From: Paramyrothecium sp. XJ0827
Lineage: Eukaryota > Ascomycota > Sordariomycetes > Hypocreales > Stachybotryaceae
Reading direction: 5' to 3'
Assembly (NCBI GenBank): GCA_020881915.1
Contig: JAJFPB010000011.1
Span: 1,860,001-1,924,000, forward strand
DNA: 64,000 bases
This document shows, piece after piece, positions 10,047 to 37,440 of this stretch. The notes beneath the pieces are model-generated. The model was not told the origin of the DNA. It did not search any database and was given only the letters and a program-made list of their open reading frames with translations. The number at the start of each line of letters is the position of its first letter. The stretch's first letter is position 1. The translations under genes were made by a program, and so were the position numbers.

Positions 10047-11132
10047 TGAATGGGTGCTCCTGTCGCTCTGCATCATCGTCTTGACTGCGCGGATTGGAGT
10101 GAGGATTTGGCGACGAGTGTGGTCGTTCTGGCTATCAGACTCGTTCTTGGTGCTATCTTTTCTCTTTTTTCTTCCGCTAGTTGTAGGAGACACAGTTCTC
10201 TTTGCAACCGGTCGAACTTTTCAGGACGATTCTTATCCTGAGGGTTTCTTGAAGGTACTACTACCACTCTTGATCAAGCCTGGATGAGCACTAATCGACC
10301 TTCGCACAGTGGTTCTTTGCAAGCACATTAATTTTCGATTTGGGCTTTTTCCTCGCAAGATTTAGCTTGTTGGCCTTCTACTACCAACTGTTCCCGATAT
10401 CGGAATCGTGGTCACGGCGTCTGCTCTGGATTGTCGTGGTCTACAATGTGGCAGGTTTTCTTGCGACCGGTTTCCTGGATCTCTTCTGGTGTGGTGCGGA
10501 TGTCTGGAGAAACTGGCAAGTTATTTCTAACAGCCGATCATCTACTGAACTCTGCTGAGATTTTGTGTGCAACGGGTCTGACGGTGAGTCTGCATGTTCA
10601 GCCGCATCAGATCCAGTGAGCGCCTACATCGTATGGCCGATTAATCTATCTGCCGAAATTTTGGGTACGTCCTGTCTAAAGTTATTGATTGATGTTTTAC
10701 TGACCTTAGTTTCTCAAGTTTTCATTCTTCCATTCTCCCTAATGAGGAGGCTGAGTAAGCTTCATAGAAAAGAGAAGATTAGTTTGTTCTGTATCTTTTT
10801 GCTAGGGTTTGCAACTATTCTGGCCAGCATTGCTCGGTTTGTCCTGGGAATTACAGAGCTGTTTACTCTGGAGGCTTGTAAGTTTTTAGTTTTTTTTCTT
10901 CCTCTTTTTGCCCGTTTTCGTTCTTGAAGTTCTGACGTCGGATCCTCCAGATTTGCTCGGGTCGGTCGAAACTGCAACTCAGATTATTGTTGTCGCACTG
11001 CCAGCTCTGCGGCCTCTTCTTACCTTGGTCTCACGCCGACGCTCTAGGACTAAGAAATCACCTCGAAGTTACAGTCATGGATTCCGAAGCTGGTCTCGCC
11101 GTAAATTCTCAACTACAAAGACCAGTGTTAGT
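9988..11132 (+). pseudogene. PTH11/SAT4-type membrane protein, 5' part, cut by hAT copy A
   Basis: The exons I can place are 9988-10254, 10310 to about 10514, about 10560-10664, 10710-10877 and 10930-11132. Introns 1, 3 and 4 are clear; the second has an unusual donor (possibly GC-AG). Membrane helices and motifs fit the family: VLLSLCIIVLTARIGVRIW, FSLLAFYYQLFPIS, PINLSAEIL, and finally SVETATQIIVVALPALRPLL. The first ~20 codons (MTKMLWGSLHHL...) lie inside the MITE, so the native first exon is missing or replaced. The frame stops at the hAT end after codons for TSVS. The remaining 3' codons are at 32523-32387 on the minus strand, carried away by the inversion. Confidence 0.8.
11125..11132 (+). 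repeat. half of a swapped target duplication (GTGTTAGT)
   Basis: This 8-mer abuts the left end of hAT copy A. Its partner is not at the right end of copy A (TCTAGGAC, 14961-14968). It is at the left end of copy B, reverse-complemented (ACTAACAC, 32516-32523). Confidence 0.95.
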
Positions 11133-14100
11133 CAGAGTGCGTAATCAACCAATTCAACTCAACTGGTACCTCCTCGCAGTTGGATTGACATCCGGCCAAG
11201 TATATTTCAGTTGGATTGACGTTGGACGAGGCTGCTCTCAGTTGGATTGCAGTTGGTTGTTTCGGACCAACGGATATCTCCGATCTTCACGTCTTAACGC
11301 CGATCCCACTCATCACTGCCATGAGGGTAGGACAATACCCTCCCTGCTCCATGACCGCATACTCTGCGCCATCCCAATAGTGTGTCGATCAAGACGAGTT
11401 CGTAAAGGTGATACCATCTTGCCCGCGCTACTGAACGACCTTTCAGTCTCTGCTGACATTGTAGGGATAGACAGCAAGTCAGAGGCCATTCGAGAGAGGT
11501 TCGGATACTCCATTTCGTGCTCTTTCCACCAAGAAAGAGGGCTGAATTGGCATTTGTCGTCGGCTGGGGTAAACGTCTGGATATAACGTTCGTACTCGTC
11601 AAGCGCTGGGCGCCGTTGCGAAGGATATCCCGCTCTGTCATCTGGATGCGCCCTTTTGCGTTTGCCAAGCGACTGTGCCAGGAACGCGTCATATCCAGAG
11701 AGCGCCCTTCGGCTGCTCGCTGTCGACAGCATCGCTAAGCCAGGAACCACGCGAGTAGCATACTCCTCCTTCCACATCTTCTTGAGTCTTGTCGAGTAAT
11801 CTTCTTCCCACTGCGTCGCATCCGCATGTCCTTCCCAGTGGTATTGCAGCGCCGGCCACCCAAAGCAAGGGTGAAGCACTACAGCACCGATATACGCAAC
11901 AGGCCAGAGTTTATCGTAGTACTCGTTAAGCTTCATCCACGCAAGGTTGATATGGGTAGCAACCATATCAGCGCTGTCCTTTCCCAAGCCCTCAAGGAGG
12001 TCATGACTCTGCTTGAGCTCCTCTAAATGCGTTAAGAGATACTCAAAGGAGGGGAAATACTCCCAAAAGGAGCCGGTGGTAACATGGTTATCCTCGCTAG
12101 TCTTCAGGTTGCCTTGTAGACGAACGGAGATCTCATCAAACGGCCGCAAGACTTGAATTAAAACCTCAACCACATCCCAGTCCTCTTCTGACAGCTCGTC
12201 GTCAATTATAGAAGGCTTCGTTGACTTTCTCTTGCCCCTTCCCCACGCCCTTTCTGCCTTGTCGACAATCCGATTGAAGTATCTACGGAGAAGCAGAGCG
12301 CGGACCATCATACGGTGGCGAGAGTTCCAGCGGGTCTCGTTGTCAGCGATAGGTCTGAGCGGCACTCGCTTCTTCCTAGTCTCAGGATCGACGAGTTCAA
12401 GGACACCGCTTTTGGGATCTTCTTCTTGCCACTTCAAGAGGCACTCTAAGTGTTGTGGCGAGTTCAAGACAGCGGCGTTGAGATTGTGAAGTCGACCAAT
12501 TGGGCCCCTCCTCCGCCATTGCATAAGCTTATCGGCCGGTAGAGAGTCGAAATCGTATTCGGAGTCCAGTTCGTTGCTGCCTGTATGCTCCATTGCGTCC
12601 GCCGCCTTGCCGAATATCAGCTGCTTGACGGCGAGGTTAATGACGTGGCCCAGACAGCGGAGACGGTGTTCGTCTGGGTCAAACTCGAATTCGTTGCCGA
12701 GAGCCACCATTGCCGTGTCGTTATTGCTGGCATTATCAAGGACCATATACCCAAGCCGGTCGCCTCCAAGATCCCACTCTGCCAAGACGTCAGCCACTTC
12801 GTTAGCTAAGCTATCGCCAGTATGGCGTCCGGATACGGCTGGAAGGGCGAGAAGCAGTTTCCGGTGCCGCCATTGTTCGTCAACAAAGAAGCAGTTGACT
12901 CCAAGCAACGAGAGCTGATTGCGAGACGTCCAGCCATCAAATGTGATGTGAATCTTGCCACGAGCAGTTTTTAGATGTTCCGTTACAGCTCCTTTCGCCC
13001 CATTGTAGATCGATCGCAGTCGAGACCGAAGAACCGCGGAAGATGGTATCTTGTCTTTGTACATCGGGGTTGACAAACTCAATGAGGCGGCGGAGACGCT
13101 CACTCTCGATTAGTCGGAAAGGAAGATTATCGTGTGTTATCCAGTCGACGAGAAGCTCTTCGAATGCGCCGAGTTTGAGCCTCCCAAGAATGGTAGAAAA
13201 GATACGCTGGTCGGCTGGGGCTGCAGTCACTCCAAAGTGTTCTGTCAGAGTCTTAGTGCGGCTGGGCGGCGTCACGTCTTTCCTTCCTGGGTCCTGCAAG
13301 ATTGAGTTGGAGTAAAAGAATGAGGAGCTGCTTATTGCTTACCTTGATCCCATGAATATCTCGCAGGTGCTTGATAATATTGGCACTGCCGTTAGATTCG
13401 TACGAGAAGTGCGAGACCGTCCGGCACCTCTTCCTCACGCACAGACGGCATACCCATCGAAGCTTCTTGCTGTTACCCTTGAGCCTCATACGGAACCCTT
13501 TCACCCACCACCAGGCAACCTTTGCGCCATTAGTCCTCGGAGGCGTGCCTGCCCGAAGCTCGTCGTTGAAGAGCTCGAACGGGAACGTGGCTATCTCGCC
13601 AGGCGTAGGATTCTCATCCAGGTTAAATATCTTCCTCGGCGGGGTCTGCGGCGTTGAACCTGACAAGAATGAGGACTGAGTAGAGAGCCTCGACGGGCAG
13701 GGAGACGAATGTAGGGTCAAGGACGTTTCAGATCCTACTTGGCCCAAGAAAATGTCCTGGGAATCGATATCCATCGTGTTGGCTGGGAAGCTAGACTGCT
13801 GGAGTCTGTCAGCGAAGGAATAGTATGGCTTCCTTCAGCGGCGACGTACTGCAACATTTGACGACCAGAGGCCAACGTCCTTTGCCTCCATTTTATCGGG
13901 CACGACAGCGCAGCCTTTCCAGGCCGTCTGCAGGGACAATTAACGCGTTGAGAAACCGCCACGCGATCCGACGCGCCGTGTGCAAATCGCGAAGCTCTGA
14001 TGTGGTGCTAAGGCATGTTAGCAGGCACAGCCACGGCACTATATAATCTACGGTACCGGATGTATCTTGCAACATGAGAGATAGTAAAGAGTATGTTATC

Positions 14101-14960
14101 TCAGCGGCGAAGCCTAAGCTGTGGAGTTAAGAGATACCAGCCCCACCATAATAAATAGGCGGCCTGTACGGTAGCTCTTATCTAGCGTGTATAGGGTAGA
14201 CTGTCCGACGTATCTTGCTGCTGAACGAAATTGCTGAATCCTAATAAACACGTCACTCTCTACGTGAAATAACATTCATACAGTTAAAGTATACTCACTG
14301 AATTTCTTTTGCTGAAAGCTTTCTTCTGGTATCAATTCTATCATGGTTAGAGATATGTTTCCAAGGTATCGTTTCGTAGTCTAGAATGCCGTGTGCATGA
14401 CAGTGAACATCGACCACTGTGACTGATGAATGTGGGGTGACAGGTCGCTGTACCTACACACAAGTCAAAATGTTTCACTGGACGCATGTACTAGCGACTT
14501 TATAGATCCCCACAGGCCTTCACGCGGAGGCTTAACTTCCAAGGCCCCACCGTTCAGCCTTCCGTGGAGAAGCTGAATGATAAGCTCAAGAATGAATTAT
14601 AATCAGACGCCAGGCTGGCGCGAGAAGAGCGCGAAGCTGGCGCGGGTGGGAGAGGCGAGAAAGGGTTTGTTTCGTTTGGCTCAAGATGATGCCCCTCAGC
14701 GGCCGATCATTGGCCAGCGGGCCGTACGAAAAGCCAAACTGGGAAGTTGAAGGTTGGGTCAAAGTTACGGCGCCCGGGCCTCACATGACCCTCGGACACT
14801 GGGAACGAGTTGGAACCGGTTGGATCCAAACCCAATCAACTGGACTTCTGAATTGGTTGGTTGCCAAGCACGGGGAGCGAGATCTCAGTTGAGTTGGACC
14901 CACAGTTGGAGGATCCAACGGCTCCAACGATTGGAAGTAGTTGGTTGATTACGCACTCTG
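11133..14960 (-). mobile_element. hAT transposon copy A
   Basis: A 3,828-bp element with 20-bp perfect inverted ends (CAGAGTGCGTAATCAACCAA and its reverse complement). The subterminal regions are rich in GTTGGAT-type repeats (11150-11270 and 14750-14945). It carries one transposase gene on the minus strand and a leader of about 1.1 kb (13775-14930) that has no convincing gene. Copy B at 32524-36350 is near identical and opposite in orientation; I found only one base deletion and one substitution between them. The flanking 8-mers are not a matched pair. Confidence 0.97.
11313..13774 (-). CDS. hAT transposase (copy A)
   Basis: Exon 1 (13774-13343) encodes an acidic start and a BED-type finger (WVCRLCVRKRCR, then IIKHLRDIHG). 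A 49-bp intron (13342-13294) with clean GTAAGC and CAG sites follows. Exon 2 continues with DWITHDNLPFRLIE and the conserved EFVNPDV motif. The frame then must change by one base before KIPSSAVLRSRLRSIYNG and a 590-codon open stretch ending at 11313. That stretch contains FDGWTSRNQ, LDNASNNDTA, RCLGHVINLAV, DNETRWNSRH and the hATC block DLLSIPTMSAETERSFSSAG. The one-base step is in both copies. It is either an inherited frameshift or an unusual splice. A 49-nt GTGAGC...AAG removal would fix the frame but delete EFVNP, so I doubt it. Confidence 0.85.
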
Positions 14961-15919
14961 TCTAGGACCTCGTCAATGCCGTCCAAGGCATCGTCTGCCG
15001 GGCCCTCTGAGATATCAGAGGCATCGTCAGACATATCGTCAGACATATCGTCAGAGCCCTCATCCAACGGCTCATCTGACGGCTTGTTTGAGGGCTGTTT
15101 TTTAGGGGGCTTTTTCTGTGGCTGTTCAATTCCGACAGGACCAAATTTGGACCCAGGCGTATGCCAAATCCAGTGTAAGATATAGCCTTGGGCAGCTAGT
15201 ATCCAGACCTTGATCCCTGTGGGCGTTGGTTTATTAGGGATCGTTACCTTCTGCCGGGACCGTCCGTCGAAGCCGATGATGCCCTCATCCACACCAATAT
15301 TGCTGCCAACTTCAACAGCAGCTATAGCAGCTTTCATGATATAGTTGGCCCATTCATTGACCTTGTTGTACGGACGAGGGATTCCATGGTGGACCGTATC
15401 TAGATCGTCAATTCGAAGCCGGCTTTTTAGTAGCGTAAATCTATTATATGTCATAAACCGTATCCATGGAAAGGTAGGGACAAAATGCCCTTCGTCTGAG
15501 ACCTTCCAATAGTCTTGAATTCGAGGAGCCTTATATAGAGTCATTGATATCACAATGCCTATCCATATATAGATCTCAGCAACGGATGTTGATATCCACT
15601 GATTTTGACGGCTCCCATCGGACGGCTCGGTCGGTGGGTGGTTGGCAGGGCTATTTGTATAGCTGACCCATTGTTCAACTAGGGATTCGGGTAGAAAAAG
15701 CTGGAAAAGCTTCAAAGGCGTCTCTGGAAGGTCCCGGACCTTAAAGGGTTGATATGGAACGTCGAGGGGTTTAAAATGTGACCCTGTACGGCTTGCTGGC
15801 TTGTGGTCCGGCCGGCATGTGTTATCAATAGGTTGCTCGCGCCGGCTATGGTCCGTTGTAACAGGAATCCGTTCCTCAGGGGCCACTGTGGCCGCGGCGG
15901 CATCGTTGTCTGCTTCCAT
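14961..15919 (-). pseudogene. PiggyBac transposase, N-terminal 320 codons
   Basis: Translation from the ATG at 15919 (MEADNDAAAA) is favoured because the related copy at 40.3 kb starts in the same way (MEDTDE). A disordered N-terminus is followed by the DDE_Tnp_1_7-type core: LKLFQLFLPES, EIYIWIGIVISMTLYK, RFTLLKSRLRIDD, PYNKVNEWA and NIGVDEGIIGF, which has the first catalytic Asp. Near the cut comes an acidic repeat (SDDMSDDMSDDASD) absent from many relatives. The frame runs into the hAT end after GIDEVLD. Catalytic Asp 2 and 3 are encoded by the other half at 36.4-37.4 kb. Confidence 0.9.
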
Positions 15920-16090
15920 CGTCAGATAGCTAGTAGCGGCAGCGTTGTCCGTTGCGGAAGCATCGTCAAAATCCGTTACATAGCTATTTCTATGGACAGG
16001 GATTTCCTTGTTCCTCAATGTACTGACATCACGGACAGGGGTGGTGTGGAGTACGATACATCCCCTGCACCTTATGACGCTCAAGGGGAT
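14961..16090 (-). mobile_element. PiggyBac element, 5' half (displaced)
   Basis: The outer end is a 40-bp terminal repeat at 16051-16090 (ATCCCCTTGAGCG... read on the minus strand). The inner end is the hAT insertion point TCTAGGAC at 14961-14968. The other half of the element, starting with the same target sequence, is at 36351-37529 in the opposite orientation. The matching terminal repeat lies at 37490-37529. A nearly identical, differently truncated copy at 52049-53580 shows the uninterrupted sequence across the junction. Confidence 0.93.
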
Positions 16091-16309
16091 AGTACTCGAG
16101 TACCAAAGTGTGGATCAAGTAGCGACGGTATCAATGGTCAAGTTTTGCTCCAGCACAAAAGGACGAAACTAATACAAGACATAACGCTTATGACATACGC
16201 TGCGGGTATCTTTATAAAAGGCCAAAGAAACATCAAACAGTATGGCACCCATGAAGCACGAAATCTCAACGCCCTAACATCGTAACGGGATCATGATGTC
16301 TCAATCGTC

Positions 16310-18546
16310 TCAGATGGCTTCTGGCAAAACTGCGCTATGATTGGCAGTATAACTCGTCAGTGAGGGTCGATTCAGCCAGTACTGTGATCCCCGCCGCAGC
16401 ATAGAGACGATGGTTGTCTGCTGCTTCTCGGCATCTGGATCATTGATAATTTTGGCGATGCCAGGGTCCGACGCCGCATTAGCAATGGACTGGAAGCTCT
16501 TGTCTGGGTGAATCTCATCTCGGGTGAATGAGACTATTCCAAGGACAACGGCAATCAATGTGGCGATGTTGGCTAGAGCGTACGGTATGAACAACGACGT
16601 GGGGACATATCCGTACTTATTGACATTGGTCCAGAAGGTTACATCTCTTGAGGTGTTGGATCTGTGGCACTTGTCAGCAATGGCACTCACCATCGAAATG
16701 ACAAGATTGTGACTGACGTTAGTATGGGACTGCTCAGCATGCTGACCGTCATGTTGAAGCTCAACTCCTCAATCAAGACATCTAATGTGCGGTTCCTCGC
16801 CAGCTGCTTGTCGAGAAACCTTTGACCTTGAATCTCAATTTCATTGTCGTACACGTACAGATCGTAGATGAGCTTGTAATCGAAGAAAACGTCCAAGTCC
16901 TGGCTACCCAAGACGCTCGAGTGCCGGATTGGAGACTCCATGGCTCCGAACTGAGGCAGATGCTCGGAATTGGTACTGTTGGCACTCTCGTCCCTGAACC
17001 AACCCAAAGAGCCAACAAGTTGGTCTGTCAAGGCCCAAAAGAAGGCAGCGTAGGCGTGATTGGCCATGTCGGACACTTCACCAGCTTGGTCATCCGGAAA
17101 TCTGACCTCCTCTCCAATCTCGTACGTACCAGTTACATTCTGGACATTGAGAGTCCAATTTAAATGTAAGCTGTATGATGCATTGTACAGACGGCAGACC
17201 TGCCACACGCGGTTGCGTATGCGTGTTCCAGAGTCGTCCCAACCCCATCGTTGAAACGTCAACCACAGCTCGTTCGTCGCGTTTGACGGCTCTTGATAGC
17301 GCGGCTCCATATACGCAACAAGTTGCTTGTTAGTATTAAGGGCAGGGATGAAGCTGTAGTAGGCGCTATCGACTTGGTGAGCAGTCCCCTTACGGATGGC
17401 CATGTGCTCCTCTAGAAAGTCGTTGATGAGGTCCACCGTCGTTTCATTGGCGTCTTGGCATTTGACAATGGGCCCGTAGAAATCAAGCGAATAAGCTGAA
17501 TGATTTGAAGGAGGGTCTATGGGTAGAATCTCGCCGGTGGAGGAGGTCGCGCTCGCATACCGGGTGATAATCGACCTTGGCCCCGCGAAAATTCTGGTTG
17601 TGTCGAGGTCTACTGTGTGTTCGCTATTCCACGGTGGCGAATATGCGTAATCATGGCCAGCAGAGCTATTGGCGATGGCAACGTAATGTACGGGTCTGCT
17701 AGTGACGTTCGTTTGTTGGCTGGGGAAGACAATGAGGGCGGCCGGTGTGAAGAATGCGGGTAATATAAGGCACCTAGCTCAACTATTAGCACCTTGTGCT
17801 CGCTAGCCTACCACTACTTGCTAAGCTCACCAGCCCATGAATGCCAGACCTGCACCGATTTTGAATTTCTTAAGAAGCTCGACATTGAGTAGCGCCGAGG
17901 GAGCCAAGTCTACCGAGAACGCCTTGTTCAGGCCTCGTGGCGTCCACTTCTTGCTATAGACGGCCCTCCACAGCCATTGCGTGTACGACTTCCAGATGCT
18001 AGCTGTGAGAGCGAGCTGTGCCAAGAATGAAAATGCGGTGCCTACACTAGTGGGGATTATCAGCGCTATCGCGGAAGATATAAATGGCCGGGCTCACCGA
18101 AGCTTCTCTTCCTGCTGGTTCGAATCACCAACGATTTCCCCCTGAAGGAGGTAATAGAATATGCAGTGCCCAAGACTCAATCCAAATCCTATGATGAAAA
18201 AGACAATCATCTCGAAGGGAGATCTCATGCTGCTGCGAACTTTCGGTTTCCATAGCCTGATGAATCGCTGCGACGTGTCGGATCCATGTTGTGAGCTGGC
18301 ACCGGTGATGACTCCAACTTTCGCTACGACCTGGATCGGATCTAATGAAAGCGACTCTTCAACGCGCGGCGTCTTCAGGCTACTATCGACAACCTCACCT
18401 AAATTGGCATTATCAACTTGAAGTGAACGGTCAGTGAGACTGCGAAGTGATCCATTTTGCTCCAGTGCCACTGCCCTGGCTAGCTTGGAGGTATCGTCAG
18501 GCGCGATGTCGCAAGTGTCAGAGCTCGTTCGGTGAAGGTCATTCAT
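16310..18546 (-). CDS. fungal multi-pass membrane protein
   Basis: Four exons (18546-18098, 18046-17831, 17773-16718, 16661-16310) join in phase to a 690-residue protein. The introns are 51, 57 and 56 bp. The third uses a GTCAGT donor and a TGCTGAC branch site and gives PILTSNTSRDVTFW; the nearby GTGAGTG donor would leave a 29-nt intron and is rejected. There is a long cytoplasmic N-terminus, then helices at MIVFFIIGFGLSLGHCIFYYL, GTAFSFLAQLALTASIW and around LILPAFFTPAALIVF. A large Asn-rich (glycosylated?) extracellular domain with NETT, NATN, NASY and NWT follows. A last helix, FIPYALANIATLIAVVLGI, is near the C-terminus. The layout matches a fungal family often labelled 'formylmethionine deformylase-like'. 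No deformylase motif is present, so that name says nothing about function. Confidence 0.8.
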
Positions 18547-18988
18547 TTCGAAGTAGGAGTCTGTTGTGCTGGTGCTTCAACGAAAGCTAAGGACAGATGG
18601 AATAACAGAGGCTGAAATGCTTCGCATCGTGCAGCATCTCCGACTCATACCATCATATATGTTGCACCTTATTAGGCGCTCAGCAATTCGTCGATTGATT
18701 CAGGCATTTATGGCGTCGTAGACGAGCCCATACCTATCGCTTTGCAGCAGCACTGCCTAGAGCATCAATAAGCAGGGGCGCAATCAGCCTTATCGATCGC
18801 GCAGTCATCGTTATACTTTGGATATGGTGTGGAGATGGCGCAGGTATGGCCTCGACCGTCGACAGTATCGGCGAACCACGACAGCACATACAAGCACGTT
18901 CCTACAGGGTACTTCTTGGCCTAAGCTTTGAGCTGGATACTACACACACCTTTCTCAAATATGTCTGTAATGAGCCGTCATTGTCTGG
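18547..18988. other. no recognisable gene
   Basis: Promoter-side region of the membrane-protein gene. I see no further features. Confidence 0.4.
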
Positions 18989-19459
18989 GTGTTGTGCGTC
19001 CGAACTCTGTGTTCATCGTCCTGGACCCGCCACAATGTAACCGTGGCGCAGCAATCGCCCTATCGCAAGGGTGACAGGCATAAGACCGCAGTCGACGAGA
19101 TCCTCGAGTCGCTGGTCGGTCTCACGCGTGCATCGCCCGGCTTGTGGGCCGAGTTGGTCAAGCTCGCGCGGAAATGGCATTGCGAGTCCCACCCGGGGGT
19201 CGTCTACGCAAAGGACCGGGCCCGCGAGTGGTTGGCGCTGTTTCCGGGCGGGCCTCCGGCCGCAGCAATCACCACTACCAATCCCTTTGATGAGGCCCAA
19301 ATGAAAATAAAGGAGCTGCTGCGCCCTTTGTCGTCTCAATGTCCCGTCATTGCGGAGAGCACCGGCAAGCGGTGCCAAAAACCCATCGCCGGGAGGAATA
19401 TGCGCCATTGCGACAACTTGGCCAACGAGATTGCGAGGCAATCAACTGTTGATGCCTGA
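18989..19459 (+). CDS. hypothetical protein (possible fragment)
   Basis: An open stretch of about 150 codons with balanced composition. It has a helical block (PGLWAELVKLARKWHCE, then YAKDRAREWLALFPGG) followed by a Cys motif, CPVIAESTGKRCQKPIAGRN. Similar CxxxxxxGxRCxxPI motifs occur in fungal proteins carrying N-terminal extensions to GIY-YIG/T5orf172-type domains. That likeness is from memory, and no such domain follows here. The first codons may not be real; the coherent part starts near 19040. It is probably a truncated gene. Confidence 0.35.
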   Translation: MLCVRTLCSSSWTRHNVTVAQQSPYRKGDRHKTAVDEILESLVGLTRASPGLWAELVKLARKWHCESHPGVVYAKDRAREWLALFPGGPPAAAITTTNPFDEAQMKIKELLRPLSSQCPVIAESTGKRCQKPIAGRNMRHCDNLANEIARQSTVDA

Positions 19460-19878
19460 GGTGCGAAACTTGACCCCTCCCCAGATTGGTAATGTCAGTC
19501 TTTTATCGCCAACCCTTGTTAATTTAATCTCTGGTCCCCGATACATTAGATCATGGCTACTACTGCTGCAACATGGTACGAACTAAAATTTTCAAATTAA
19601 CTGCAGACGCATTTTCTGCGTATTCTGCAACTGCAGAATCTTGCGGAATCTTGCACTGCCTTGCACTGCCTTGCACTGCCTTGCAATCGTGGTGCCACCC
19701 TTACCTGCACCTCTTTGCACTTACGTGCTCCTAAAGATTGAGGTCAAAATTCTAAGCCCACCCCACCTTTTCGCCACCAAGTTTGATACATCGGATGCAA
19801 CGAAGATACTTATAACTACACCAATAAAATTGGGGAAAATTAAGTACATATATTAATAGAAAGGTCTTCTTCGTATTC
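19460..19878. other. short tandem repeats, no gene
   Basis: Contains three copies of a 10-bp unit (CTTGCACTGC) at about 19650-19685 and AT-rich DNA beyond. It lies between the hypothetical protein and the Tc1-type transposase, and may include that element's left end, which I could not define. Confidence 0.5.
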
Positions 19879-21023
19879 TCAAAAGCGGGTATACCAGCCC
19901 TTGGCCTGACGCACCGCGGCCACGCGTTTGGGCACTGGCTCGATCAGGCTGTCGATTTTGGCTTGATCCAACGCATCCCACGCGATTTCAAGGCATTCCT
20001 TGAATTCTGCGATATTGGCCTTATTTCCCTTACAATTTAAGAGCTTCGGGAACATTTTATAAACCTTGTCTTTGAATAACCGCCATACGTGCTCGATAGG
20101 GTTGAGATCCGGGCTGTGAGCCGGCCAATCGATCCAGCCTACTCCGTTGTTCAATAGAAACTCTGTAGAAGCTTCAGAACGATGGATAGCAGCGTTGTCT
20201 TGCTGAAAAAGACGTGTGCCATCATAGACCGGCATCAGACCTTCTTGTAAGGCTTGAATATAGCTTCTAGAAGTGAAGCCTTTGCGCTTGGCGGCATCGT
20301 CGCGGGTCATGACGACCAGTTTCGATCTCCCACCTTTGCAGATAGCTGCCCACACCATAATCCTTACTGTAGGTTTATTATGAGCTGTTTTATTGACAAA
20401 TCGGGCGTCGTAGGCCTCATACGGGAAGCGCCACACCCATGAGACCTTATTGTTGCCGGCGTTGTGGACTGAACACTCATCCGAATGTATCAGCGTCTGT
20501 GGCCGGTTTAGCGATGGACATCACTGCAGACTTCAACATACAATACCTCCACCAATTCTTCCTCTCTGCCTGTCCACCCTTGACAAAAATAAAGCCGCGA
20601 CTTTGCTGATTCTCGTGATAGGAAGATCCGGTTCTTAGTACGCCATTTGCGTAGGTTGGCATCGTTTAAAGTCCGCCGCATTGTCGAGAGGCTCACATCA
20701 AGGTCGACTTCAGATAATAGAGCCCTACGGGTGAGGTCAGGGTCCTGACGAACCTTACGTATAATACGCCTCTTATCCCGGTCACTAAGTGCCTCAGGCC
20801 GCCCAATTGGGCTCGAATTAGTAGGAAGGTTGCTGTGTGTGAGGTTTTCAAGAATGTATCGCACAGCGCCGCGAGAAACGCCATACTGCTTCGCGACAGC
20901 GCGTTGACTTTGGCCGGACTTGAGGCTGCCAAAAATAGCTCCACGGACTTCTGGGCTGATTTCCTTGCGAGAGGACCGATTAATAGAGATATCAGCTAAA
21001 GGCTCCCTTTTTTTGCGCACCAT
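19879..21023 (-). pseudogene. Tc1/mariner-type transposase, frameshifted
   Basis: The N-terminal half (from 21023) has the two helix-turn-helix parts typical of Tc1-type proteins: RGAIFGSLKSGQSQRAVAKQ, YGVSRGAVRYILE, and GRPEALSDRDKRRIIRKVRQ. The catalytic half has SDECSVHNAGNN (first Asp), RLFQQDNAAIHRS (second Asp) and WPAHSPDLNPIEHVW (third acidic residue as Glu). Three frames are used: the break near 20600 shifts the frame, and another shift comes before SDECSVH. It cannot encode an active enzyme. I could not delimit terminal repeats, so only the coding span is given. Confidence 0.85.
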
Positions 21024-27130: not shown

Positions 27131-27598
27131 TTATTTCCACTTCCTTGGTTTTGTAGAGTAGTTCACAGCGGGCGGGCTCTCATATCTTTCTGAACCAGTG
27201 TCTTGAGTGGTGAAAGTTGACATGCACCTCGACTCCCCTGCAAGCTCTGCTCTACCAGCGACGGAACTCTCCCTTTCAAGCTCAAATGGTGGATACTCAA
27301 AGGGTTTCCGCTGCGGAAACAACGATCCGCTGTTAAAGCTACTCATAGCTTCGACTTCTTTGGTTTCTAGATCCAAATATTCATTTTTGTGGATGCAGTT
27401 GAACTGGGCGTGAAGATGCAAAGAGCCCTCCAAAGTACTTTTCAAATCTCCGCACCCAGATCTTGAACAGATAAACTCATCGATAGAACTATTTGGACCT
27501 ATGGATGGTAATCTTGATGAACGTCTTCGACCGCAAACAAAGCATCTCAAAGTTCGTTTAGGTTGTGATTCTGACACAAGAGATGAGTAATTAAACAT
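27131..27598 (-). CDS. Cys/His-rich hypothetical protein
   Basis: A 155-residue ORF with a compact Cys/His cluster in its first half: CFVCGRRR, FICSRSGCGD, then HLHAQFNCIH. The spacing would suit a zinc-binding fold. The second half is Ser/Pro/Glu-rich and looks disordered. No intron is needed. The family is not recognised. Confidence 0.45.
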   Translation of the reverse strand: MFNYSSLVSESQPKRTLRCFVCGRRRSSRLPSIGPNSSIDEFICSRSGCGDLKSTLEGSLHLHAQFNCIHKNEYLDLETKEVEAMSSFNSGSLFPQRKPFEYPPFELERESSVAGRAELAGESRCMSTFTTQDTGSERYESPPAVNYSTKPRKWK

Positions 27599-27877
27599 TC
27601 TTGTAAGTTGACAACGGGTGCGTAACGCGGGCCTCTGTAAAAACTTAATATGCTGAGAAATACTAAGACCTGCTACTAGCTATTTAACAGTTCCAAGGAC
27701 CGATAGGTGCTTAGAAGCGACGCCCCGCGAAACCCGTCTTATAGGACCAGTGTTCTGGTCCTCATTTGAGGCACATTGGAGTTCCTGAAACAGAGACGAA
27801 GACAGTATTGTGCCATCCGTTCTCAATGTTCCCAATTTTAGTAGCATGGGCCTACATCTAGTCAATTTATTCGTAGA

Positions 27878-27884
27878 TATAAAG
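27878..27884 (+). promoter_or_regulatory. TATA-like box of the patatin-type gene
   Basis: TATAAAG lies about 60 bp before the ATG at 27944 and is followed by a pyrimidine-rich stretch (TTTGTCTCTTGCTG, CTTTCCCC). That is the usual layout of a filamentous-fungal core promoter. Confidence 0.45.
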
Positions 27885-27943
27885 GATGCAGCTTGTTTAC
27901 TTTGTCTCTTGCTGTCTGACTTTCCCCATCGATTCCATCAACC

Positions 27944-29292
27944 ATGAAGCCTTGTACTCATACCTCGTGGCTTCGCCTCTCTTCCAATGGCAACAAAACA
28001 GAAGTCACCGTATCAGACCGACCGAAGAAGCTTTTGAACGATATTCCTTATCCTGATGATCAGCAGCCAAGTTTACTCGTATTCATTGGGAATGTAACCA
28101 AGACTACTGCTTTGCGAGAGCTCTTTGGTGTGAAACGGTCTCGTCACTTTAGCCTATCCCGGGGTCCATTTGAAATACATTTGCATGTAGACCCTACGAG
28201 TCTCTTTTTGGGTAGACCTCTTTTCATTGCCGAGGGTGATCTCTCCGCGAGGTTCAGGGGCAAGGCTCCGAAATACAACTGCCATGAAGTTAGGAAACAA
28301 GAACTTAAGAGGCCGATATCGAACAGTAACTTTAGCCCCATTCAATCTGGCATCTACTCGAAGCTTTTGTTCCCGTTTACGGATGTCTTTTGCGTCTTCT
28401 GCGATGATTTGGGAGGCCTTAGACAAGTTGCGCAGCATTTAGCCGCATGGTTAGAAGATGGCTGCCAGTCCACGTTGCCGGCAACCACGCGCCCAAGAAT
28501 TATCCTAGTTACAGAAAAACTTTCAAAGGGCGTGAAGAGCGAGAAAAAAGCGAGAGCAGACTTCCTCCGCCTGGTGGAAGATGAGACAGCCAAGAATCTG
28601 CTGGACTATGTTTCCACGCTTGATATATTACCCCTTACCCCAGCAAAACCCCAGTATGAACTACTAAAGAACCGACTATTGATTAGATCGGACCAAGGGC
28701 GAAAGAGTAGAAGTAATGCCCGGTCCCTGTTCTCACTAACACATTATGTTACTTTTCTAAACAGTGCTTGTGATCACTTCTGCAACACTCCTCAAGAACC
28801 ATTCAACTTCATCCAATCGTCGCGCGAGAAGACTCCCGTCGTTGCAGATATGGAAGCACACATGTCTCACTTCCTTGGCTTTGTCAAGTCTCCAGATCAA
28901 TTGACTAGTTTCGCAGCTCCTATCGTTGCATCTAGTCTTGTCCTTGACAGTTATCCTCCCGATGCTCACCGTAAGTGTCCAGCGACAGGAGTCTGCCATC
29001 ATCTAACTCTGGAAAAGGTTTTCTGCCGCGAATGGTATTTTCGACCTTGTATAGTGATCTACTCGCACAAGCAATCAGACATCGAGTGATGGCTTTTGAA
29101 GAATCAAACGACGTAGTCCTCCGAACCGGCTTTCTCAAAAAGGTTGAGGCATACTTTGAACAATTTGTAGAACAATCCATTCTTGAAACGAAGCCAGTGG
29201 CAGATCTCCATCAACGGTATCTAGCGCGCCACAAATTGCAGTGGCTTCGAATCTATAGCCGTCAGACTTGCCTAACATGCTTGCGACGGAAC
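27944..29292 (+). pseudogene. patatin-type phospholipase gene, N-terminal part only
   Basis: Exon 1 (27944-28970) and exon 2 (29018 onward) join across a 47-bp intron. The protein starts DDQQPSLLVFIGNVTKTTAL, ELFGVKRSRHFSLSRGPFEI and LHVDPTSLFLGRPLFIAEGDL. It continues through FCDDLGGLRQVAQHLAAWL and ends at TCLTCLRRN. From memory, this N-terminal region, ending in a CxxC that opens a RING-like finger, belongs to large fungal proteins with a downstream patatin phospholipase domain. Here the frame is cut by a hAT element at 29293, and the DNA beyond the hAT does not continue the finger. The catalytic part is therefore missing, and the enzyme cannot be made. Confidence 0.6.
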
Positions 29293-32119
29293 CAGGCTGG
29301 CGAATCTATCTATATCTATCTACCAAGGCCCCAGGTAGATAGATGTAGACGCTTAGTAATCTGGGCCAAGATAGATAGATAGATGTAGCCTATATGTAGA
29401 TATAGATAGATTTCAGTAGATAGATAGTGCACGGACAATGCTACCCCCGGTCCACGGTCAGGACCATATCATTACCCACCTCCTTTAGCAACCCATCGTA
29501 TCCCTCCAACAACCCTGCTCTGAGCCATGATCTCACGGTCTGGGTAATAGCAATAGTACTCGCATCCAACCGGTGTCGTTTATGTGAGACCATGCTACCG
29601 GCGGAGGAGAACGTCCTCTCACACTCGGCAGCCATGGCGGGAATTGACAAGACGTCAATTGCCATTCTGGCTACACGAGGATACTCAAACCGCTTCACCG
29701 ACCAGTACTCAAGCGGATTATCATGTTTTGAGTATACGTCGTTCTTTGTAGATAGCCACCTCTCAAATTCGTCTTCAACCATCCCGTTTTCATAATTCGT
29801 ACTAGCCATAAGCTCATCCTGGAACGAGTCAAATGGATTATGCTCTCGTGCCCTTACAGCTTCAGGAAGATTACTGTTTGTGATCTCCCATTGTGCAGGG
29901 AGGCCGCGATACTCCTCATCCCACAGCCTTTGGACAATCCGGCGAGCGGTATGCAGCCAGTCTTCCTTATCACCATACGCCCTTGTCAAGAAGGCCCATT
30001 GTATCCCGGGATGAAGAACCGTGGCCGCATAATAGATCGGCGTCTCGTCAAGTTTCGAATAGTACTTGTTCAGCTTGACCCAGGCAGAATTGACGCAGGA
30101 AGCATAGTAATTGGGTTCTGGCCGATTTACTGCCTCAATCTTGGCTTTCTCAAGCGTTGTGAGAAGAAATTCGTAGGCCACGGCTACTTGCCAGATGCTC
30201 CCGTACTGCGCCTCAATTCCTCCCTTGCGGAGCCGGGTTTGGCCGTCGCCTTCAAGCCGCAACAGGCAGGATTCGAACTTACTGAGTATGTCCTTGAACC
30301 AACCAAGCGCATCCCAATCCGCATCGGAAAGAAGATTGGCTTCCTTGAGACACGGGGAAGCGAGCTGGGCGGCTCCGCCGAATTCGGCCGAGATCGTGGA
30401 AACCTTTTGCCAGATTGTATGGTGATGTCAATGAGCTCTTCAAGGTAACGCCGGAGCTTGATGGCCCGCTCAATCATGTAGTATTGCGAGAGCCAACGCG
30501 TGCTGTTGTCCACAATCACATCAAGTGTGCCGGGGTAGCTCTTGTCGGCATCTTCTTCCTGCAGCTTGCGCAGAACAGAAATGGCCTTGTTGGATCGATG
30601 GGCCCAAACTACAAGGTTGTGCAGTTTCCCAACCGGACCTCTCTTCATCCACTCGTCGAAGTCATCTGGATCAAGGTTCTCGAGGCTACCCTCGTCTTTG
30701 ACGAAAAGCATGGCCTTCGCAACAAGATGGAGAATGTGTCCAAAGCACCGGATCCTTCGGCGGCTTGGGTCCTCCCACTGAAGCGTGGGACCTATCTCTT
30801 CAACCGCGCAATCATTGCTAGGGGCATTGTCAAGAATAAAGTATCCAATTTTGTTGTTCGCTACTAGCTCAAACTCGTTCAGCACCTCCATGATAGCCGC
30901 GGAGACGTTTTCTCCTGTATGAGCATTTGTCACATTTGGGAGGCCGAGCACGATTTTCCGAGGTCGGAACGTTTCCTCCTCAAGAAAGAAGGCGTTCACG
31001 GAGAAGAACGAGTGCCTATTCCGCGAAGTCCAACCATCAAACGCAATATGAACCTGGCTCGGGCTTCGTAACATTGCATCGATGACATGCATTTTGTAGC
31101 TGTCGAACTCATGGATGATACGAGCGCGGACCGTCTCGTGCGTAAGAACAGCGGAAGTCTCCTGAACTAGAGGATTGAGGTACTGAAAGACCTTCTGAAG
31201 CCCTTTGTGCTCCGGGACGCGGAAAGACAGATTTGCGTCGGTGATCCACTGAACCAACAGTCGCTGAAATTTGGTTCTGTTGAATCGGACGACTAGCTCG
31301 TCATGAAAGTCGTCTCTCTTGCGCTTCTTGGCGGAGAATTCATGGAGGCTTGGCTGATTGGAAGGTCGTTGTGACGTGTATCGCTTGGCTTTCGATGGAT
31401 CTGGGCTCAAGATGCAGTGCGCCTTGGCAAGGTGGCCTTCAATATTCCTGGTGTTGGATGATACGTAGGCTTTGGGCTTGTGGGCTTTTTGCAGGACACA
31501 ATGGCAACAGAGCCATATGGGCGCACCTTGCTGATTGTTAGATGCTCTAGCGTGGACATCATAGCCATGGTTCCAAAACCATCCAGTAGCTAGGCCAGTG
31601 CGGGTTGAGAGAACCCAATGCGTCCGGATAGACTCGGACACTGCCTCCCAGTCTTTTATCGTTGAGGGGCTGCTGGGTGATGATGATGATGATGATGATG
31701 ATAGTAGCGTAGGAGCGGCTGACTGGGGAGAGGAATTGTATGAATTGGATGGGGAAGCAAAAATATCGGCTTGAAACGCCATTGTGGGGAGTTGGAGTAG
31801 GTAGCTTGGCTGAATCCAGGACTAATGTGAACAGCCAAAAAATTTGGTGATGGGGAAGGAAAAAAGAGACTAAAGAAGGGCGAGATTGGGCAAGTATAGG
31901 TACCGTAGTATAAGGGTAAATTACAAGTAGTTATGGGTGCTTCTACTTCCCGTAAATATGGGTCCAATTCTTGGCATCTATCTACATTTTGTCTATCTAC
32001 AAGAGGTCCAGATAGATAGATAGATGACCCACATAGACCTTTGATAGATAGATAGATGTAGATCTACATAGATCTACATCTACATTTCGTCTACATCGGT
32101 AGATAGATTCGCCAGTCTG
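29293..32119 (-). mobile_element. hAT transposon copy D
   Basis: Inverted ends CAG(G/A)CTGGCGAATCTATCTA open and close the element. Both subterminal regions are dense in TAGATAGA repeats (29310-29430 and 31970-32110). The adjoining 8-mers GACGGAAC (29285-29292) and GAGAGGAC (32120-32127) agree at only 5 of 8 positions, so a target duplication is doubtful. It sits at the break of the patatin-type gene, and the sequence on its far side is unrelated to that gene. Confidence 0.9.
29441..31782 (-). pseudogene. hAT transposase (copy D), one frame change
   Basis: A 532-codon frame from 31782 and a 273-codon frame ending at 29441 overlap near 30260-30430, where a one-base shift (or an unrecognised intron near the AAAAGGTTTCC at 30406) is needed. 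Seen in order: a His-run-associated Ser-rich start, a BED-type finger (WLCCHCVLQKAH, then IEGHLAKAHC), FDGWTSRNRHSFF, LDNAPSNDCA, RCFGHILHLVA, DNSTRWLSQYY, LNKYYSKLDETP and the hATC block RMAIDVLSIPAMAAECERTF. It is close in sequence to hAT copy 1, but its terminal repeats and subterminal motif are different. Confidence 0.85.
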
Positions 32120-32386
32120 GAGAGGACTGATACCGGTAGACACTGCCGCGACCGCTTTCTCTTGCGTGGCCGGTATGAGCTTGCTTCTACGCTGAGTGGA
32201 AGCAGCCAGAGGTGCAACCTAAAATCTCCATCGAGTCAAATCCAATTCTGTGTCAATCCGGGACCCCTAAATCCGTACAAACGACATCTAGACGCCGTAT
32301 TCCCACATCGAAAGAACTCCCGCTGTTTGTGTAAGCTGCTAGATTTAGCATCAAGTACGCTTTTGATATCAAATAGAAGTCGTGTC
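32120..32386. other. unassigned DNA between hAT copy D and the PTH11-type 3' end
   Basis: This stretch has open frames on both strands (for example WKQPEVQPKISIESNP on plus) but nothing recognisable. It does not continue the patatin-type gene. Confidence 0.4.
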
Positions 32387-32523
32387 TTAAGAAAGGTACT
32401 CTGGCAATTCCATTTCCTCCCAGGGCGGCCTTTCCCCCGGACTGTGAAGTTCAAGACGGCTATCTCCATGGCCACTTGACTCCAAATTGGCTCGGCTCAG
32501 TTCTTGAGTACCACCACTAACAC
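32387..32523 (-). pseudogene. displaced 3' end of the PTH11-type gene
   Basis: Read on the minus strand from the hAT end, the sequence begins with the target 8-mer GTGTTAGT. It then continues in the same reading frame as the gene cut at 11132: GGTQELSRANLESSGHGD and SRLELHSPGERPPWEEMEL, with a stop at 32387. Together these give the Ser/Glu-rich cytoplasmic tail expected of this membrane-protein family. This is the strongest single proof that the DNA between the two hAT copies was turned around. Confidence 0.9.
32516..32523 (-). repeat. partner of the swapped target duplication (ACTAACAC)
   Basis: Reverse complement of GTGTTAGT at 11125-11132. It abuts the left end of hAT copy B, whose right flank (GTCCTAGA, 36351-36358) is instead the partner of the right flank of copy A. 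Confidence 0.95.
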
Positions 32524-35500
32524 CAGAGTGCGTAATCAACCAACTACTTCCAATCGTTGGAGCCGTTGGATCCTCCAACTGTGGGTCCAACTCAACTGAG
32601 ATCTCGCTCCCCGTGCTTGGCAACCAACCAATTCAGAAGTCCAGTTGATTGGGTTTGGATCCAACCGGTTCCAACTCGTTCCCAGTGTCCGAGGGTCATG
32701 TGAGGCCCGGGCGCCGTAACTTTGACCCAACCTTCAACTTCCCAGTTTGGCTTTTCGTACGGCCCGCTGGCCAATGATCGGCCGCTGAGGGGCATCATCT
32801 TGAGCCAAACGAAACAAACCCTTTCTCGCCTCTCCCACCCGCGCCAGCTTCGCGCTCTTCTCGCGCCAGCCTGGCGTCTGATTATAATTCATTCTTGAGC
32901 TTATCATTCAGCTTCTCCACGGAAGGCTGAACGGTGGGGCCTTGGAAGTTAAGCCTCCGCGTGAAGGCCTGTGGGGATCTATAAAGTCGCTAGTACATGC
33001 GTCCAGTGAAACATTTTGACTTGTGTGTAGGTACAGCGACCTGTCACCCCACATTCATCAGTCACAGTGGTCGATGTTCACTGTCATGCACACGGCATTC
33101 TAGACTACGAAACGATACCTTGGAAACATATCTCTAACCATGATAGAATTGATACCAGAAGAAAGCTTTCAGCAAAAGAAATTCAGTGAGTATACTTTAA
33201 CTGTATGAATGTTATTTCACGTAGAGAGTGACGTGTTTATTAGGATTCAGCAATTTCGTTCAGCAGCAAGATACGTCGGACAGTCTACCCTATACACGCT
33301 AGATAAGAGCTACCGTACAGGCCGCCTATTTATTATGGTGGGGCTGGTATCTCTTAACTCCACAGCTTAGGCTTCGCCGCTGAGATAACATACTCTTTAC
33401 TATCTCTCATGTTGCAAGATACATCCGGTACCGTAGATTATATAGTGCCGTGGCTGTGCCTGCTAACATGCCTTAGCACCACATCAGAGCTTCGCGATTT
33501 GCACACGGCGCGTCGGATCGCGTGGCGGTTTCTCAACGCGTTAATTGTCCCTGCAGACGGCCTGGAAAGGCTGCGCTGTCGTGCCCGATAAAATGGAGGC
33601 AAAGGACGTTGGCCTCTGGTCGTCAAATGTTGCAGTACGTCGCCGCTGAAGGAAGCCATACTATTCCTTCGCTGACAGACTCCAGCAGTCTAGCTTCCCA
33701 GCCAACACGATGGATATCGATTCCCAGGACATTTTCTTGGGCCAAGTAGGATCTGAAACGTCCTTGACCCTACATTCGTCTCCCTGCCCGTCGAGGCTCT
33801 CTACTCAGTCCTCATTCTTGTCAGGTTCAACGCCGCAGACCCCGCCGAGGAAGATATTTAACCTGGATGAGAATCCTACGCCTGGCGAGATAGCCACGTT
33901 CCCGTTCGAGCTCTTCAACGACGAGCTTCGGGCAGGCACGCCTCCGAGGACTAATGGCGCAAAGGTTGCCTGGTGGTGGGTGAAAGGGTTCCGTATGAGG
34001 CTCAAGGGTAACAGCAAGAAGCTTCGATGGGTATGCCGTCTGTGCGTGAGGAAGAGGTGCCGGACGGTCTCGCACTTCTCGTACGAATCTAACGGCAGTG
34101 CCAATATTATCAAGCACCTGCGAGATATTCATGGGATCAAGGTAAGCAATAAGCAGCTCCTCATTCTTTTACTCCAACTCAATCTTGCAGGACCCAGGAA
34201 GGAAAGACGTGACGCCGCCCAGCCGCACTAAGACTCTGACAGAACACTTTGGAGTGACTGCAGCCCCAGCCGACCAGCGTATCTTTTCTACCATTCTTGG
34301 GAGGCTCAAACTCGGCGCATTCGAAGAGCTTCTCGTCGACTGGATAACACACGATAATCTTCCTTTCCGACTAATCGAGAGTGAGCGTCTCCGCCGCCTC
34401 ATTGAGTTTGTCAACCCCGATGTACAAAGACAAGATACCATCTTCCGCGGTTCTTCGGTCTCGACTGCGATCGATCTACAATGGGGCGAAAGGAGCTGTA
34501 ACGGAACATCTAAAAACTGCTCGTGGCAAGATTCACATCACATTTGATGGCTGGACGTCTCGCAATCAGCTCTCGTTGCTTGGAGTCAACTGCTTCTTTG
34601 TTGACGAACAATGGCGGCACCGAAACTGCTTCTCGCCCTTCCAGCCGTATCCGGACGCCATACTGGCGATAGCTTAGCTAACGAAGTGGCTGACGTCTTG
34701 GCAGAGTGGGATCTTGGAGGCGACCGGCTTGGGTATATGGTCCTTGATAATGCCAGCAATAACGACACGGCAATGGTGGCTCTCGGCAACGAATTCGAGT
34801 TTGACCCAGACGAACACCGTCTCCGCTGTCTGGGCCACGTCATTAACCTCGCCGTCAAGCAGCTGATATTCGGCAAGGCGGCGGACGCAATGGAGCATAC
34901 AGGCAGCAACGAACTGGACTCCGAATACGATTTCGACTCTCTACCGGCCGATAAGCTTATGCAATGGCGGAGGAGGGGCCCAATTGGTCGACTTCACAAT
35001 CTCAACGCCGCTGTCTTGAACTCGCCACAACACTTAGAGTGCCTCTTGAAGTGGCAAGAAGAAGATCCCAAAAGCGGTGTCCTTGAACTCGTCGATCCTG
35101 AGACTAGGAAGAAGCGAGTGCCGCTCAGACCTATCGCTGACAACGAGACCCGCTGGAACTCTCGCCACCGTATGATGGTCCGCGCTCTGCTTCTCCGTAG
35201 ATACTTCAATCGGATTGTCGACAAGGCAGAAAGGGCGTGGGGAAGGGGCAAGAGAAAGTCAACGAAGCCTTCTATAATTGACGACGAGCTGTCAGAAGAG
35301 GACTGGGATGTGGTTGAGGTTTTAATTCAAGTCTTGCGGCCGTTTGATGAGATCTCCGTTCGTCTACAAGGCAACCCGAAGACTAGCGAGGATAACCATG
35401 TTACCACCGGCTCCTTTTGGGAGTATTTCCCCTCCTTTGAGTATCTCTTAACGCATTTAGAGGAGCTCAAGCAGAGTCATGACCTCCTTGAGGGCTTGGG

Positions 35501-36350
35501 AAAGGACAGCGCTGATATGGTTGCTACCCATATCAACCTTGCGTGGATGAAGCTTAACGAGTACTACGATAAACTCTGGCCTGTTGCGTATATCGGTGCT
35601 GTAGTGCTTCACCCTTGCTTTGGGTGGCCGGCGCTGCAATACCACTGGGAAGGACATGCGGATGCGACGCAGTGGGAAGAAGATTACTCGACAAGACTCA
35701 AGAAGATGTGGAAGGAGGAGTATGCTACTCGCGTGGTTCCTGGCTTAGCGATGCTGTCGACAGCGAGCAGCCGAAGGGCGCTCTCTGGATATGACGCGTT
35801 CCTGGCACAGTCGCTTGGCAAACGCAAAAGGGCGCATCCAGATGACAGAGCGGGATATCCTTCGCAACGGCGCCCAGCGCTTGACGAGTACGAACGTTAT
35901 ATCCAGACGTTTACCCCAGCCGACGACAAATGCCAATTCAGCCCTCTTTCTTGGTGGAAAGAGCACGAAATGGAGTATCCGAACCTCTCTCGAATGGCCT
36001 CTGACTTGCTGTCTATCCCTACAATGTCAGCAGAGACTGAAAGGTCGTTCAGTAGCGCGGGCAAGATGGTATCACCTTTACGAACTCGTCTTGATCGACA
36101 CACTATTGGGATGGCGCAGAGTATGCGGTCATGGAGCAGGGAGGGTATTGTCCTACCCTCATGGCAGTGATGAGTGGGATCGGCGTTAAGACGTGAAGAT
36201 CGGAGATATCCGTTGGTCCGAAACAACCAACTGCAATCCAACTGAGAGCAGCCTCGTCCAACGTCAATCCAACTGAAATATACTTGGCCGGATGTCAATC
36301 CAACTGCGAGGAGGTACCAGTTGAGTTGAATTGGTTGATTACGCACTCTG
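32524..36350 (+). mobile_element. hAT transposon copy B
   Basis: A 3,827-bp inverted copy of the element at 11133-14960, with the same 20-bp ends and GTTGGAT-type subterminal repeats. It differs from copy A by one missing G near 34621 and one C/T substitution that changes a Leu to a Pro codon near 35372. I noticed no other difference. The left flank belongs to the PTH11-type gene and the right flank to a PiggyBac. Confidence 0.97.
33710..36170 (+). pseudogene. hAT transposase (copy B), frameshifted
   Basis: Same exon layout as copy A (exon 1 33710-34141, intron 34142-34190, exon 2 from 34191), with the same one-base step after EFVNPDV. In addition, a deleted G at about 34621 breaks the frame right after FFVDEQWRHR. 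The downstream 519-codon part is open but out of register. Copy A is thus the better candidate for any activity. Confidence 0.88.
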
Positions 36351-37440
36351 GTCCTAGATGACGATAAGGCTCTGAACCCGACCCAAGCTGTCGTTGTTTT
36401 CCTAGTAAACAAGCTGCCCGCCAATATATATCATGTCTTTGTTGATAACCTCTTTTCATCGCCGCAGCTCTTCCGGCAGCTATGAGAGCTAGGCATTGGA
36501 GCCACAAGCACAGCCCGTACGAATAGTGGCATACATAGGGACCTTGTCAACGCCAAAAAAGACGATACTAAGGGCCGGAACCTATGGTCATGGGGGCATC
36601 TTATAGCCAAACCTACATCTGATAATAAGGTCCGGCTATCTAGAAGATCCTACTGAATTTCCCTACTAATTACTAGATATCTAGGTCAACCAAATCGGCT
36701 GGAAGGACAATGCCTTAGTGTTGTTTTTTACTACAGTTTACACCGGCCAAGAGACCATCAATTGCATCCGCCGGCGGCCAACAACAACAAGGGCTCGAGC
36801 CCGCTCAATCAAGCGGCTCTTTGGCAACGAGGCCATCTTGAAGCTAGATATCCCGTCTGTCGCAGCCGATTATAATAACTGGATGAATGCTGTGGATCGT
36901 AGTGATCATCTTCGGTCCAATAAGCATTTTAACCGTCGTCAGAGACGGGGTCCGGCTCGAGCTATTACCTGGTCTTTCCTCCTTGCTATAGCTCTGTGTA
37001 ATAGCTTCCTTTTGCAACGAGACGGTCAACCAAGGTGGAAACGCCACAAGGCTCAAAGTCGGTTCCAACAGGCCTTAGTTGACGATATCTTCCGTACATA
37101 CGGAAAAGACGGGACATCTAGACAACGATATCAAGCCGGCAATAGCTCGATCTCAACAGACGAACATACTTGGATTAATAGGAAGAAAAGAGCCTGCTGT
37201 CTAGCTTGTCAGGGCATTCAAATTGGTCCAAGGACAAAGACCTCACAGCAGGCTCAAAAACGCCGTCAAAATGACGCCCCTTTGGCCACATTAGATGCAA
37301 ATAGCATCAATAGCCGAGCTGAGCGCCCTACGAAGAAAAGGAAACAAGGAACATGGACCCGCAACGGCTGTGACGTATGTAATGTAGCCATTTGTAACAA
37401 GGATAAATGCTGGGACTTCTATCATAGGCAAAATTATTAG
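36351..37440 (+). pseudogene. PiggyBac transposase, C-terminal part
   Basis: After NIYHVFVDNLFSSPQLF (second catalytic Asp) there is an in-frame TGA in RQL*ELGIGATSTARTN. A 55-bp intron (36630-36684, GTCCGG...CTAG with CTAAT) then leads to VNQIGWKDN and the open stretch VAADYNNWMNAVDRSDHLRS (third Asp). The protein ends in a Cys-rich zinc-binding tail: CCLACQGIQIG, then CDVCNVAICNKDKCWDFYH. The same TGA is present in the sister copy at 53.1 kb, so the stop predates their duplication. Confidence 0.88.

Follow-up and report, generated by a model that had tools for sequence, protein, structure and literature searches.

Exchanged target-site duplications at two opposed hAT copies point to a 17.6-kb inversion in a repeat-rich fungal chromosome

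Introduction

How can two nearly identical hAT transposons, each expected to lie between two copies of the same 8-mer, both lack a matched pair, while every flank of one reappears, reverse-complemented, beside the other? This is the situation of two elements in the window analysed here, a stretch of 64,000 nucleotides (C2:1860001-1924000) in a genome of 51.77 Mb and 15 contigs. Contig C2 (2.17 Mb) is repeat-rich, and is therefore probably an accessory chromosome. Target-site duplications make rearrangements readable from one genome, with no need of a second strain, and undisturbed paralogues of the two insertion sites provide an independent check on the approach here. A survey of two hAT families on the same principle also led to a candidate second inversion (179 kb) and to many copies with unmatched flanks. 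If these findings are borne out, they would bear on the extent to which repeat-rich chromosomes of this fungus are reshuffled, and on whether transposons act as homology only or also as makers of breaks.

Two hAT copies with exchanged flanks

Copy A (3828 bp, 11133-14960, plus strand) has the terminal inverted repeats CAGAGTGCGTAATCAACCAA at both ends. Copy B (3827 bp, 32524-36350, minus strand) lies in the opposite orientation, and 3826 of 3828 aligned positions are identical between the two, the differences being one substitution (12106 in A, 35377 in B) and one 1-bp indel (12861 in A, beside 34623 in B). The transposase reading frame of A, on the minus strand, contains the hAT C-terminal dimerisation domain (PF05699, E 1.9e-25). 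Of 7996 candidates scored, 118 are relatives of this transposase, and several of these carry the name transposase in their source; the nearest stands at 94% and the next, from Lecanicillium saksenae, at 72%. For a protein encoded on the core contig C9, the best full-length match reaches 74%. The host is probably an ascomycete and may belong to the Hypocreales. With 8-bp target-site duplications, short terminal inverted repeats and this domain, the elements belong to the hAT superfamily.

Read on the plus strand, A is flanked on the left by GTGTTAGT (11125-11132), the left copy of a target that we call site 1, and on the right by TCTAGGAC (14961-14968), which belongs to a second target, site 2, within a DDE_Tnp_1_7 transposon. 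The left flank of B is ACTAACAC (32516-32523), site 1 reversed, and its right flank is GTCCTAGA (36351-36358), site 2 reversed. Neither copy has a matched pair, and the left flanks of A and B are reverse complements of each other, as are the right flanks. The initial annotation had described this exchange between almost identical, opposed copies, and its coordinates and 8-mers proved correct to the base. The 8-bp rule is valid for this family, since five of its 16 two-ended copies keep perfect 8-bp duplications of their own.

Undisturbed copies of both insertion sites

Site 1 lies in a copy of a gene for a rhodopsin-like membrane protein. The larger part of this gene copy is found at 9000-11132 on the plus strand (9000 is where the search began and sets no left limit), and it is itself interrupted at about 9785-10047 by a MITE-like insertion of 262 bp. 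Another 327 bp of the gene copy, moved off by the inversion, are found at 32197-32523 on the minus strand. The stretch that runs up to A and stops at 11132 has a 99.4% match at C2:721102-722201, and the stretch to the left of B, which stops at 32523, has a 98.8% match at C2:722194-722519 on the opposite strand. In this undisturbed paralogue the two halves thus overlap by exactly 8 bp (722194-722201), at GTGTTAGT. A second, diverged copy on contig C9 has the identical join (92.0% and 87.3% for the two halves), and the C9 gene carries the fungal rhodopsin domain Fung_rhodopsin (PF20684, E 1.7e-6).

Site 2 lies in the DDE_Tnp_1_7 transposon, one part of which occupies 14961-16092 and the other 36351-37529. 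A second copy of this transposon in the window (52049-53580) has the site unoccupied, with the two parts joined at 53219-53226 (TCTAGGAC); it ends at 53580, where another hAT starts. Site 2 is whole in at least 20 copies, this one included, and all 20 side-by-side pairs of matches overlap by exactly 8 bp. The matches to the two flanks come from the best 40 of 101 and the best 40 of 113 candidates scored (52 and 46 matches listed), and the pairs were picked by hand from 21 of the 22 listed first-flank matches beginning at the site (the window's own aside) and from 20 listed second-flank matches beginning at position 1 or 3. The match left out, C5:744138-744334 (72%), has no counterpart among the second-flank matches listed. 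C2:1764942-1766070 is likewise unpaired at site 2 among the matches listed; it and a paired match, C2:1766071-1766163, both lie within a tangle of copies. The element carries a transposase domain (DDE_Tnp_1_7, PF13843, E 3.2e-27) that we take to be the piggyBac domain. The target of piggyBac is TTAA, and TTAA borders none of the five genomic copies whose two ends were read, so that the earlier label 'PiggyBac' fits the domain but not the flanks.

As the flanks meet with the expected 8-bp overlap in undisturbed copies, the ancestral arrangement is seen and not merely inferred. Moreover, since the paralogues join the halves, both units are whole in the un-inverted order, and the argument does not need the duplications. 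Exchanged 8-mers and undisturbed joins together place the inverted segment at 14961-32523 (17,563 bp). The 17.6-kb inversion of the initial annotation is therefore upheld by undisturbed paralogues of site 1 and site 2 elsewhere in this genome. The two broken units that it had named are also real and whole in the un-inverted order, but they were broken by the hAT insertions; the inversion only separated the halves.

Ectopic recombination between the two copies

Homologous copies in opposite orientation at the breakpoints, exchanged duplications and undisturbed sites with a single copy of the target are all present here. Breakpoints without loss, combined with exchanged duplications, are described as characteristic of ectopic recombination between copies in inverted orientation (PMC2775673, PMC3355041). 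Judging from the exact 8-bp overlaps in the paralogues, no base was gained or lost at either breakpoint, as recombination predicts. We therefore consider it highly probable that the arrangement arose when two hAT insertions in inverted orientation underwent ectopic homologous recombination. In this account, cut-and-paste transposition would have placed two copies of the same hAT 17.6 kb apart and in opposite orientation, one into the rhodopsin-like gene copy, with duplication of GTGTTAGT, and the other into the DDE_Tnp_1_7 transposon, with duplication of GTCCTAGA. A later crossover between the 3.8-kb inverted repeats would have flipped the intervening DNA, leaving each hAT with one duplication from either site. 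We infer both this order of events and homologous recombination as the joining step. Because only two positions differ between A and B, the crossover point and any chimerism are not visible in them.

Mosaic-like copies in the hAT family

By comparison of their sequences, copies of the A/B family look like mosaics of one another, which would favour recombination. When 18 copies were compared at their 33 informative sites, the four-gamete test was failed by 113 of 528 pairs of sites. If sites in RIP-like context are excluded, 64 of 325 pairs fail, and if only transversions are used, 5 of 36. Failing pairs are further apart than expected by chance (permutation p 0.022). Gene conversion could have produced such mosaics instead. 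A genome-wide scan for chimerism among triples of 16 copies gave 52 that passed the filter. The best candidates, c930 and c1120, are c981-like up to element position 1461 and c254-like from 1978, with agreement at all 13 informative sites; their uncorrected p values are about 0.0005 and 0.001, against 3360 triples that are possible. Individual chimeras are not significant after correction, and c981 and c1066, which have their own duplications, score too.

Other copies with unmatched flanks

We measured 19 copies of the A/B family, 16 of them with both ends; these counts are lower bounds, all first-look candidates having been scored (21 of 21, and 14 of 14 for a second family, hAT2). Apart from the five copies with a duplication of their own and the exchanged A and B, one copy (c1288, C2:1288541-1292369) has an 8-mer in common with a truncated copy (c1471, C2:1471724-1474255). 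The other eight two-ended copies have an exact 8-mer partner at neither end, and seven of these are independent (c143 and c559 share both flanks).

The 8-mer common to c1288 and c1471, GATTGATA, joins the left flank ending at C2:1471723 to the right flank at C2:1288540, on opposite strands, and about 0.005 exact matches would be expected by chance over the 306 comparisons. The two copies differ by 2 substitutions in the 2.5 kb that they share. Because c1471 has no right end, only one duplication can be read. A paralogue on contig C8 is in register with both flanks, matching one as far as base 203 of its 220 and the other from base 8 onwards, with the spacing required by an 8-bp duplication; the 8-mer itself is not conserved there, and base by base 81 of 131 bases agree with the joined flanks. 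On these matches, the exchange implies a putative second inversion of about 179 kb, a further argument for recombination.

For c797, c930, c143, c254 and c1120, we read about 300 bases beyond the flank in an uninterrupted genomic copy (10 short stretches), and the expected other half was not at the edge of any hAT copy found; deletion or loss may have given rise to these copies. The search for c417 turned up a second genomic copy of neither flank. In C4_398, the left flank falls within the DDE_Tnp_1_7 element, and its missing half is not beside a hAT among the matches listed.

The hAT2 family, represented in the window by a copy at 53581-57096, keeps a matched duplication in only 2 of 10 two-ended copies. 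Two of its members on opposite strands of contig C12 (C12:122188-125702 and C12:225575-229096) have AACGCATG in common, on one side only. The right flank of another, C2_259 (C2:259206-262722), is identical over 97 of 97 bases to that of C2_850 (C2:850605-854119), which retains its own duplication. The window also contains a third element, hAT3 (29293-32119), the left ends of which were missed in four of the five other copies as fetched. In an rve-bearing element, sought for comparison as a family that lacks a hAT transposase, the end stretch tested is present once per copy, so that no long terminal repeat was seen, and the other end was not found.

Over both hAT families, matched duplications are retained by 7 of 26 two-ended copies, and 19 are without one of their own. 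The process at A and B thus seems to have affected other transposon copies of the genome. A bolder and rather unlikely reading would make hAT elements main joints at which the small chromosomes of this fungus are rebuilt, with breaks made by hAT transposase starting ectopic exchanges. Under this reading alone, such breaks would explain the 19 copies without a matched duplication; A and B might still flip in mitosis, both orientations being present in one culture.

Alternative explanations

The most serious alternative, in our view improbable, is hybrid-element transposition, an aberrant event. One hAT, present on both sister chromatids, would supply two ends that act as a single transposon, and their insertion 17.6 kb away would create a second hAT copy and the inversion at the same time. 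Such an event, starting from a single site, gives an identical exchange of duplications and breakpoints that are likewise without loss, except that the copies are non-chimeric (PMC2775673). The initial annotation had called the inversion proven, which is slightly too strong for the mechanism, although the inversion itself is supported by the paralogues; similarly, only under recombination would the exchange have to fall within the element, as that annotation had it.

Near-identical copies, such as A and B, are predicted by hybrid-element transposition, and frequent unmatched flanks in two hAT families would suit it as well. The partners in both inversion pairs are closest or joint-closest relatives, which counts against recombination; the hybrid-element route predicts this equally well or better. 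However, a third copy 26 kb away, c1841 (C2:1841245-1845070), has its own duplication, TCTTATAG, and is as close to B as A is: A, B and c1841 have six private substitutions in common and are mutually 1-2 substitutions apart (A-B 1; B-c1841 1). As c1841 is equally close to B, recent local transposition alone explains the near-identity of A and B. The mosaic-like copies also argue against the hybrid-element route, which by itself would probably not yield them, as does the flank shared by C2_259 and C2_850, a sign of copying or duplication that extends outwards from the element.

A second alternative, which we regard as very unlikely, is that reads were misjoined within the two near-identical 3.8-kb repeats and that the real chromosome is un-inverted. 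A misjoin of A and B would look just like the observed arrangement. Against this, an assembly of 51.77 Mb in 15 contigs probably implies long reads, and the second pair, c1288 and c1471, has just 2.5 kb of element in common. Moreover, misjoins only permute flanks, such that each left 8-mer should recur as some right 8-mer, whereas for 8 of the 16 two-ended copies in the A/B family, neither flanking 8-mer has an exact partner among the copies found. Since shuffling would conserve the set of 8-mers, a shuffle of joins does not explain these copies; an error at A and B alone may still have occurred.

Reversed-ends alternative transposition of the maize Ac type does not fit, two different duplications having been exchanged and nothing lost. 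Finally, although unmatched flanks are common in the family, a coincidental match between two unrelated insertions without duplications is refuted by the longer flanks that join in undisturbed copies at both sites, the chance of a double reciprocal 8-mer match being about 3e-8 over all 120 pairs of the 16 two-ended copies (uniform bases).

Comparison with known systems

Ectopic recombination between inverted transposon copies, our preferred reading, has close precedents. In the Galileo inversion 2z3 of Drosophila buzzatii, breakpoints are likewise without loss, and undisturbed sequence has single target copies (PMC2775673). Galileo, however, belongs to the P superfamily and makes 7-bp duplications, whereas the present elements are hATs with 8-bp duplications; chimerism was shown there and un-inverted chromosomes were compared, whereas our copies are too alike, and paralogues within one genome supply the undisturbed sites (PMC2775673). 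Exchanged duplications at the BuT5 inversion 2s of Drosophila mojavensis were also read as ectopic recombination between transposon copies, the transposon and host being different and the inversion fixed in the species (PMC3355041).

Inversions made by alternative transposition of maize Ac/fAc also have a hAT at both breakpoints, but their junctions carry a new matched 8-bp duplication and inter-element DNA is lost; here, in contrast, two older duplications were exchanged without loss (PMC8225341).

Our search of open-access titles and abstracts returned no fungal hAT inversion shown by exchanged duplications, although such a case may have been published. In Verticillium dahliae, also a filamentous ascomycete, rearrangements over highly similar transposons were ascribed to homology-based repair; they were found by strain comparison, and exchanged duplications are not used in the part of that report available to us (PMC4971763). 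The process of inversion is thus itself well known, and transposon-based rearrangement has already been reported in an ascomycete (PMC4971763).

Exchanged duplications and other rearrangements around hAT copies

A second exchanged 8-mer of the first hAT family, the family whose copies bound the 17.6-kb inversion, was found on contig C2: GATTGATA is shared by two copies lying on opposite strands, at C2:1288541-1292369 and C2:1471724-1474255. Such an exchange between opposite-strand copies of one hAT is read from the sequence as implying a 179-kb inversion. The gene targeted by this pair is NB-ARC-like in appearance, with a score under the family cut-off, and a paralogue on contig C8 covers both flanks of the pair.

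Four copies of the same family on C2 (C2:143501-147239, C2:559119-562854, C2:72635-73751 and C2:470632-474373) have an 85-bp internal deletion in common. Both flanks of the first copy recur at the second, and its right flank recurs at the third as well; this pattern suggests that a piece of DNA was duplicated after the hAT insertion; however, the left flank common to the first two is part of a repeated element.

In the second hAT family, hAT2, only two of the 10 two-ended genomic copies have kept matched duplications, and the window copy (53581-57096) has different left and right 8-mers. Two opposite-strand copies, C12:122188-125702 and C12:225575-229096, have AACGCATG in common on one side only, possibly the outcome of a 100-kb inversion followed by another event. 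The right flanks of C2:259206-262722 and C2:850605-854119 are identical (97/97 bases compared), and one of these copies keeps a matched duplication of its own; the suggested reading is either that sequence was copied non-reciprocally or that a duplication began inside the element.

Other elements of the window

A third hAT-like element, hAT3 (29293-32119, terminal repeat CAGGCTGGCGAATC), lies inside the inverted segment; its flanks GACGGAAC and GAGAGGAC do not match, and its right part has five near-identical copies on C2. At about 9785-10047 stands a 262-bp MITE-like element with inverted ends, for which the matches listed include copies at 100% identity (rounded) on five other contigs; its two ends are also found on longer relatives of about 2.4 kb.

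The left flank of the window hAT2 is a transposon with a DDE_Tnp_1_7 domain, present at 14961-16092, 36351-37529 and 52049-53580. None of the five copies read has TTAA beside its ends (ATCCCCTTG...); the domain itself is of piggyBac type.
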